NCBI GenBank assembly: GCA_028818225.1
Contig: JAPPOG010000045.1
Location: 62,001-126,000, forward strand
Source of the DNA: Gammaproteobacteria bacterium
GTDB lineage: Bacteria > Pseudomonadota > Gammaproteobacteria > Pseudomonadales > Pseudohongiellaceae
Direction: 5' to 3'
DNA: 64,000 nt
Shown: positions 18,011 through 19,747 of the stretch, in pieces
Layout of the letters: the number at the start of each line of letters is the position of its first letter
Numbering within the stretch: the stretch's first letter is position 1
Translations under genes and position numbers: made by a program
Notes under the pieces: model-generated
The model's database searches: none
Told to the model about the DNA's origin: nothing
What the model saw: only the letters and a program-made list of their open reading frames with translations

Positions 18011-18199
18011 AAGAGTTCCCTAGGACATTTGCCAATCAAAAGTGTTCTTGAGCCGATATCGTAATAACCGGAGGCAACTCGTCAGATGTTGGTGTGCATG
18101 TCCGCAAGTCGGAAAGCCTTATGCATCGCGGGAGCCACCACCTGAACCTTTGGGTTCAGGGCAAGTTTGATAGCGGTGTTCCGGGGGACTTGACTCTTT
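18011..18199 (+). ncRNA. ssrS: 6S RNA
   Basis: Between zapA and ygfA; TGAGCCGATAT, GTTGGTGTGCATGTCCGCAAGTCGGAAAGCCTTA and CACCTGAACCTTTGGGTTCAGGG match the shape of gammaproteobacterial 6S RNA; ends complementary (aagagt...actctt). Confidence 0.87.
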
Positions 18200-18924: not shown

Positions 18925-19017
18925 TTACATTAAGGCGCTTTGAGCGACGCTGCTGGCCAAGACACTGACCACAAACAGGGTGACCACTACCATAACCATA
19001 TCCGGCTTCTTACTCAT
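18925..19017 (-). CDS. Possible 30-aa single-TM peptide (not in the supplied ORF list)
   Basis: Minus strand: MSKKPDMVMVVVTLFVVSVLASSVAQSALM*, preceded by a purine-rich GGAGCGGGAC before ATG; hydrophobic centre with basic N-terminus. Confidence 0.45.
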   Translation of the reverse strand: MSKKPDMVMVVVTLFVVSVLASSVAQSALM

Positions 19018-19170
19018 GTCCCGCTCCGTTGCTGTTTCAACGTACAAGTGCCTTAACGGCCCGATTATTTAAAGCTTTAGGCCTAATTTTCTCTAAAAAA
19101 CAACAGACTACTGAATATAGTTAATGTGCACTTAATGTCGGCCTTTTCCTTTAAGCGATCCCGCACTTAA

Positions 19171-19297
19171 CTATCAGTCCCTGTGGCTCGCACTTGCAGC
19201 CGTCCCGGCTTCTCTCCTTCGGTCGGGAGCCCTGTAATACTGTCTCCCCTCGGTCAGTCGATCCTGCGTTTTTATGCGACGCCATAGGGACTGACAG
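19171..19297 (-). repeat. Structured element copy A (~127 nt, core on minus strand)
   Basis: Ends ctatcagtccctgtggc / gccatagggactgacag are complementary over 17 bp; core matches copy B (GCATAAAAACGCAGGATCGACTGACCGAG...CAGGGCTCCCGACCGAAGGAGAGAAGCCGGGACGGCTGCAAGTGC). Confidence 0.8.
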
Positions 19298-19502
19298 TTC
19301 TGTGCTCGTGCTAATAATTTGCCTTTTCTTCTTTTGGGGGATGGCACTGCATTCAAAATGATTGGGGTTGGGCAGTGATTTTCGTTCCGGTGGGCCATCC
19401 CTGGGCGCCAGTCACGAAAATTCCCTGCTTGGCCCTGACCTGATCAATTCAGCGCCAGCCTGGAATAGTAAGAATCTGCAAAATGATCAGCACCAGCGAT
19501 GG

Positions 19503-19630
19503 ATTGGCGACCCCTTTGATTCAGCATAAGAGCGCAGCATCGACTGGCCGAGAGAGTTGCTTTTCAGGCTCTCGAGAGAAGGAGGGGAGCCGGGACGGCT
19601 GCAAGCGCTGAAACAGAAGGGGTCGCCAAT
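19503..19630 (+). repeat. Structured element copy B (~128 nt, core on plus strand)
   Basis: Ends attggcgacccctttgattcagc / gctgaaacagaaggggtcgccaat are complementary; core GCATAAGAGCGCAGCATCGACTGGCCGAG...CAGGCTCTCGAGAGAAGGAGGGGAGCCGGGACGGCTGCAAGCGC. Confidence 0.8.
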
Positions 19631-19731
19631 TTATCGCGTAGTGGATTAAGACTCCGATCCAGGCAAGCAAGCTTGATACCCTCAGATCATGAATCCCGGC
19701 TATTGCTTTCCGAAATCAGCGCTCTATAATA

Positions 19732-19747
19732 CTGTATAAAAATACAG
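19732..19747. promoter_or_regulatory. LexA (SOS) box upstream of imuA
   Basis: CTGTATAAAAATACAG = CTGT-N8-ACAG, 32 bp before the imuA start. Confidence 0.85.

Follow-up and report, generated by a model that had tools for sequence, protein, structure and literature searches.

A family of structured, covarying intergenic repeats in uncultured gammaproteobacteria, with an inverted pair inserted beside an SOS promoter

Two inverted elements, A and B, lie between ygfA and imuA in the 64,000-nt stretch of gammaproteobacterial DNA analysed here (the window). On balance, we regard them as two members of a non-autonomous mobile repeat of high copy number that occupies intergenic sites, usually as a back-to-back pair, and whose sense strand needs to fold, most likely as RNA. 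The family is classed as a non-autonomous structured mobile intergenic repeat because empty, collapsed and inverted sites are found together with a covarying fold. Small structured repeats such as REP, ERIC and BOX pose a long-standing puzzle, namely in which molecule, DNA or RNA, their fold matters and by what they are moved. The present family combines large size and diversity with covariation. Within it, counting G-U and A-C mismatches, with other parts of the same units as internal controls, tells which strand is selected. It is apparently a new structured RNA family of uncultured marine bacteria, and relatives are shown to differ by its insertion beside an SOS promoter.

The A/B pair and its fold

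The sequence-only reading had placed copy A at 19171-19297 (minus strand) and copy B at 19503-19630 (plus strand). These coordinates and strands, the common core, the 205-bp separation and the outward orientation are all confirmed, and the spans defined by the covariance models (Table 1) are slightly wider than those core limits. The arms do pair within each copy though they differ between A and B, as had been claimed; their description as unrelated holds for the sequence of the arms, which is variable, and not for their ends, which are conserved family-wide. When folded against dinucleotide shuffles, A and B gave z = -5.3 and z = -6.3, respectively, with 0 of 200 shuffles as stable in either case.

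Table 1. Positions of the elements, helices and neighbouring features in the window
Feature	Position	Strand	Remarks
Element A, full covariance-model match	19163..19306	-	R1 105.7 bits, E 2.5e-19; R2 94.0 bits
Element B, full covariance-model match	19495..19637	+	R1 115.3 bits, E 2.5e-21; R2 100.2 bits
B, variable helix P1, 5' arm	19496..19525	+	pairs with 19607-19637
B, helix P1, 3' arm	19607..19637	+	pairs with 19496-19525
B, internal hairpin P4 (GAGAG...CTCTC)	19552..19573	+	helix 5 family-wide
B, hairpin P5 (AGCCG-GGA-CGGCT)	19588..19600	+	helix 6 family-wide
Third, different hairpin in the A-B spacer	~19362..19438	+	from folding; core GGGCCATCCCTGG...GGGCGC.AGTCAC
Lineage-specific insertion carrying the A/B pair	19139..19699	.	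~560 bp, between 6S-ygfA and the imuA promoter
LexA-box-like CTGTATAAAAATACAG of imuA	19732..19747	+	just downstream of the insertion; conserved in relatives

A check against Rfam 15 returned no family match for A or B. Across the whole window only 6S RNA was matched (18014-18191), the best weak match in a permissive search of the A/B region scored 13.9 bits where the cut-off is 65.3, and eight further loci of the family matched no Rfam family. The spacer hairpin seems to be a separate structured repeat family; its exact motif occurs once in the window, and its core recurs beside the element inside many units of genome G005. The outer stem of this hairpin is 14 bp long, and half of its pairs are G-U on the plus strand.

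Two covariance models were used, R1, built from 30 copies, and R2, a wider model. The unit folds over 143-150 nt (core fold about 130-150 nt) into a branched structure of six helices, in which P1 is the variable arm and P2 to P5 form the core. The family alignment shows an ~85-nt conserved core and variable arms whose outer ends (GGGAACTGCGAGCGCTGGG...CCCAGCGCGTTCTC) are conserved, with a small hairpin upstream. Among the 30 copies, double-sided compensatory change with pairing kept is found in 29 of the 41 consensus pairs, and 94.2% of cells are paired (79.3% in shuffles). The covariation score of 0.437 (0.169 in shuffles) was reached by none of 500 shuffles and was 0.07-0.11 with the partners slid, and for each of the five covariation measures the alignment surpassed all 500 shuffles; the copies are related by descent, and these counts, like the G-U cell counts given below, therefore overstate independence. 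The internal hairpin P4, which had been said to change compensatorily, is paired in 98.6% of cells family-wide with both-side change in four of its seven pairs, and the hairpin P5, said to be shared by A and B, in 98.9%. The proposal that selection acts on an RNA or single-stranded DNA (ssDNA) fold rather than on a plain repeat is thus borne out by this compensation, by the many homologues and by a strand-specific tolerance of G-U.

The two segments of a candidate pseudoknot, AAAGC at the P1/P2 junction and GCUUU in the P4 loop, pair in 78% of cells, compared with 40-58% when slid; this pairing conflicts with P2 and shows hardly any covariation. To judge from their sequence, the strands lying between P3 and P4 (GAGUGACCGA / GACCGAGUGA) could in many copies stack into a rod made up of tandem G-A mismatches. 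Readings of the element as an attC site, a group II intron or a self-cleaving ribozyme were dropped by inspection.

Distribution, pairing and mobility

A DNA search found a third copy in the window genome, and copy A used as query against 137 genomes of the taxonomic family returned copies in 11 genomes, all of one genus. The covariance-model search that the sequence-only reading had proposed recovered many homologues in the genus and the order. With R1, the family is present in 18 of 84 congeners, the other 66 being without any match, and copy numbers reach a maximum of 34 in G027, followed by 25 in G005, 20 in G074 and six in the window genome; G020 holds 13. Across an order-wide sample, R1 found it in 13 of 298 genomes and 8 of 120 genera. 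R2 added two more carriers among 387 genomes of the class, and the family is rare beyond the order. One of these two, the one-contig genome G720, has five copies; these (L240, L241, L243, L245 and L247 on G720:C1) are distant relatives from another gammaproteobacterial lineage, in which P4 is ~50 nt longer. The named carrier records are metagenome-assembled genomes (MAGs) that bear the label gammaproteobacteria, and marine or Lake Baikal samples are the source of several. Viral contigs searched with the exact core pattern, and phages and plasmids searched by blastn, gave no match, and a literature search, thin on subscription papers, found no prior description of the family. We file it as a previously undescribed family of uncultured marine bacteria, a new variant among structured non-autonomous mobile repeats.

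An insertion of ~50-75 nt recurs in the P4/P5 region of L124, L140, L221, L222, L226 and, in G005, L260-L267, and the copies that carry it are a replicating longer subfamily. At L038 and L043 of G027, the element is followed at its 3' end by ~28-bp imperfect tandem repeats that begin GCGATC, the units differing between the loci. The element 3' end (ACCCAGCGCGTTCTCC) occurs in duplicate in some cases (L130 compared with L120; the right flank of L140), with foreign DNA separating the two, which looks as though the element had gained material at its end.

Adjacent copies are mostly back to back. Among 32 such pairs, compiled by hand from the genus and order searches, 24 are divergent, seven tandem and one convergent. 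The two members belong to different subtypes in several genomes and to one subtype in the window. Each of the 19 pair loci examined lies in an intergenic region, nine of them between convergent genes. In G005, the element lies inside ~0.5-kb units that have ~37-bp terminal inverted repeats, a second hairpin and no ORF; no terminal inverted repeats of this kind turned up in the other genomes examined. Among the loci fetched through the G005 terminal repeats no autonomous copy was seen, all holding only short units (terminal repeats, element and second hairpin). A long-spaced pair of G074 (L092, 3.4 kb apart) was rejected as an autonomous copy, the intervening ORFs including nothing transposase-like by eye.

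In the alignment to relatives, homology ends after 19138 and returns at ~19700. Between ygfA and imuA lie 958 bp in the window genome, as against 315-605 bp in 29 relatives that share the gene order, and none of these relatives has a model match. The site is occupied in the window and empty in all 29, and empty sites are also found in sister species: three copies of G071 have an orthologous site without the element, and at a fourth compared site the sister copy has collapsed to the outer ends (a hairpin deletion). The element is inverted at four of nine orthologous occupied sites among G071, G040 and G020, inversions that would arise through recombination or template switching between the arms. 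Target duplication was seen neither at the window insertion nor at the three empty sites, and one possible flanking 7-bp repeat was noted in G005. A non-autonomous mobile element, one of three uses that had been suggested for the pair, is supported by the empty sites and the copy number. We also note that 18925-19017 (minus strand), between ygfA and the insertion, holds a 30-aa small membrane-like ORF (MSKKPDMVMVVVTLFVVSVLASSVAQSALM), the DNA of which is conserved in seven aligned relatives.

The selected strand and the competing explanations

For 118 distinct copies, the arms were aligned simply as DNA, under a scheme that scores all mismatches alike. On the sense strand of the element, the outer arms contain 208 G-U and 31 A-C mismatches; 90 copies lean towards G-U and three the other way, as do 23 genomes against one. 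An A-C mismatch on one strand is a G-U on the other, so equal numbers are expected of a DNA palindrome. Because the excess appears in changes from G-C (23:5) as well as from A-U (10:2), C-to-T damage on one strand is insufficient alone. The G-U:A-C ratio in G005 is 63:3 in the element arms, compared with 11:21 in the second hairpin and 43:65 in the terminal repeats (a noisy alignment) of the units. A bias that is present in the element arms and absent from the other two parts indicates that one strand, in single-stranded form, is under selection. This strand probably acts as RNA, which is the simpler reading. An ssDNA with G-T wobble is possible, and such wobble in strand-specifically recognised ssDNA could be the source of part of the excess; no promoter or terminator is shown for the element copies.

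In the reading that we favour, a unit of about 0.3-0.6 kb, with its ~150-nt core fold, would insert between genes, mobilised in trans by some enzyme of the host or of an element, and the fold would be retained since the sense strand of the element must fold single-stranded. The RNA would most likely be a read-through product or start at a promoter not recognised as such, and once folded it may be bound during propagation, or may protect or process the transcript. That the family represents a new element class, propagating via a large branched one-strand RNA fold without reverse transcriptase or TnpB and usually in back-to-back pairs, is a further proposition that we consider unlikely and put forward tentatively. 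TnpB, the partner in an omega-RNA element, was rejected (PF07282 in 0 of 21 carrier genomes), as was reverse transcriptase of the retron or group II kind, RVT_1 (PF00078) occurring in only 7 of 21 carriers and being absent from G000, G005, G020, G027, G040, G071 and others.

A REPIN-like element, the sense strand of which would fold as ssDNA, with an HUH/Y1 (TnpA-REP) or similar transposase cutting and moving it and with no role for RNA, is a possibility of some substance, doubtful as we judge it. Inverted doublets with compensatory spacer changes are a hallmark of REPINs (PMC3116915), selection on a single strand matches ssDNA transposition, and Y1_Tnp genes are commoner in carriers (20 of 21) than in the non-carriers tested (8 of 16), a comparison uncorrected for the kinship of the genomes. 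However, G020, with its 13 copies, lacks a Y1 match, and none of the 30 Y1 genes with fetched loci has an element within 1.5 kb; where Y1 genes do have flanking repeats, these are ordinary short ones of the GGGGTCAGA type. In addition, G-U makes up ~13% of the paired arm cells in G005, which is high for DNA, and the branched fold of 130-150 nt is unlike a REP of 20-40 nt.

An ordinary double-stranded DNA MITE, moved through terminal inverted repeats and carrying the fold as a passenger structure, would fit the G005 units with their terminal repeats and no ORF. We hold this to be improbable: compensatory evolution and strand-biased wobble are unexpected in passenger DNA, the second hairpin and the terminal repeats of the same units are without G-U bias, and G005-type terminal repeats are confined to that genome among those examined. 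The strongly conserved fold and the adjoining SOS promoter would suit a host non-coding RNA, or a regulatory pair, dedicated to a cellular function such as one on imuAB. Against this stand the absence of any match from most congeners, the 29 empty sites and the scatter of up to 34 copies per genome beside unrelated genes; the regulatory pair that had been suggested earlier is not supported, and the reading as a whole is very improbable. Finally, contig ends often fall within copies, as might be taken to favour chance similarity, simple tandem duplication or an assembly chimera, but this is expected of repeats. Independent copies with covarying arms in many genomes, and syntenic flanks that run on at both sides of the window insertion, refute that reading, as the sequence-only reading had suggested for a simple duplicated repeat, and leave it a negligible probability.

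Comparison with known repeats

REPINs and BIMEs (RAYT-associated REP doublets) come close in organisation: they are also intergenic and of high copy number and occur as inverted doublets with a variable spacer, compensatory changes and singlets as possible decay products. Here the inverted doublets are present (the 24 divergent pairs), whereas the short palindromic unit and RAYT flanking are absent: a member is a multi-helix fold of 130-150 nt rather than a palindrome of 20-40 nt, and the family is without linkage to a Y1/RAYT gene among the 30 Y1 genes examined. Integron attC sites share the variable paired arms. By inspection, however, it is the middle core that is conserved here and not the recombination ends, and the copies form inverted pairs rather than direct cassette borders.

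BOX and ERIC are structured, intergenic and act on transcripts (PMC3049150, PMC2229807). Streptococcal BOX (modules boxA/boxB/boxC) is likewise modular, structured and non-autonomous, inserts into or next to its own kind, and is enriched between convergent genes (PMC3049150). It differs in its host, in the divergent pairs found here and apparently in its fold. ERIC/RU-1 and NEMIS/Correia resemble the family as intergenic mobile hairpins of ~100-150 bp with a proposed RNA-level action on transcripts. The 7-bp terminal inverted repeat and target duplication of ERIC (PMC2229807), which has a 127-bp consensus, were not found here, and the present fold is multi-branched. In sum, the family is comparable to REPIN, BOX and ERIC and is a member of none of them, as judged for BOX and ERIC by description only.
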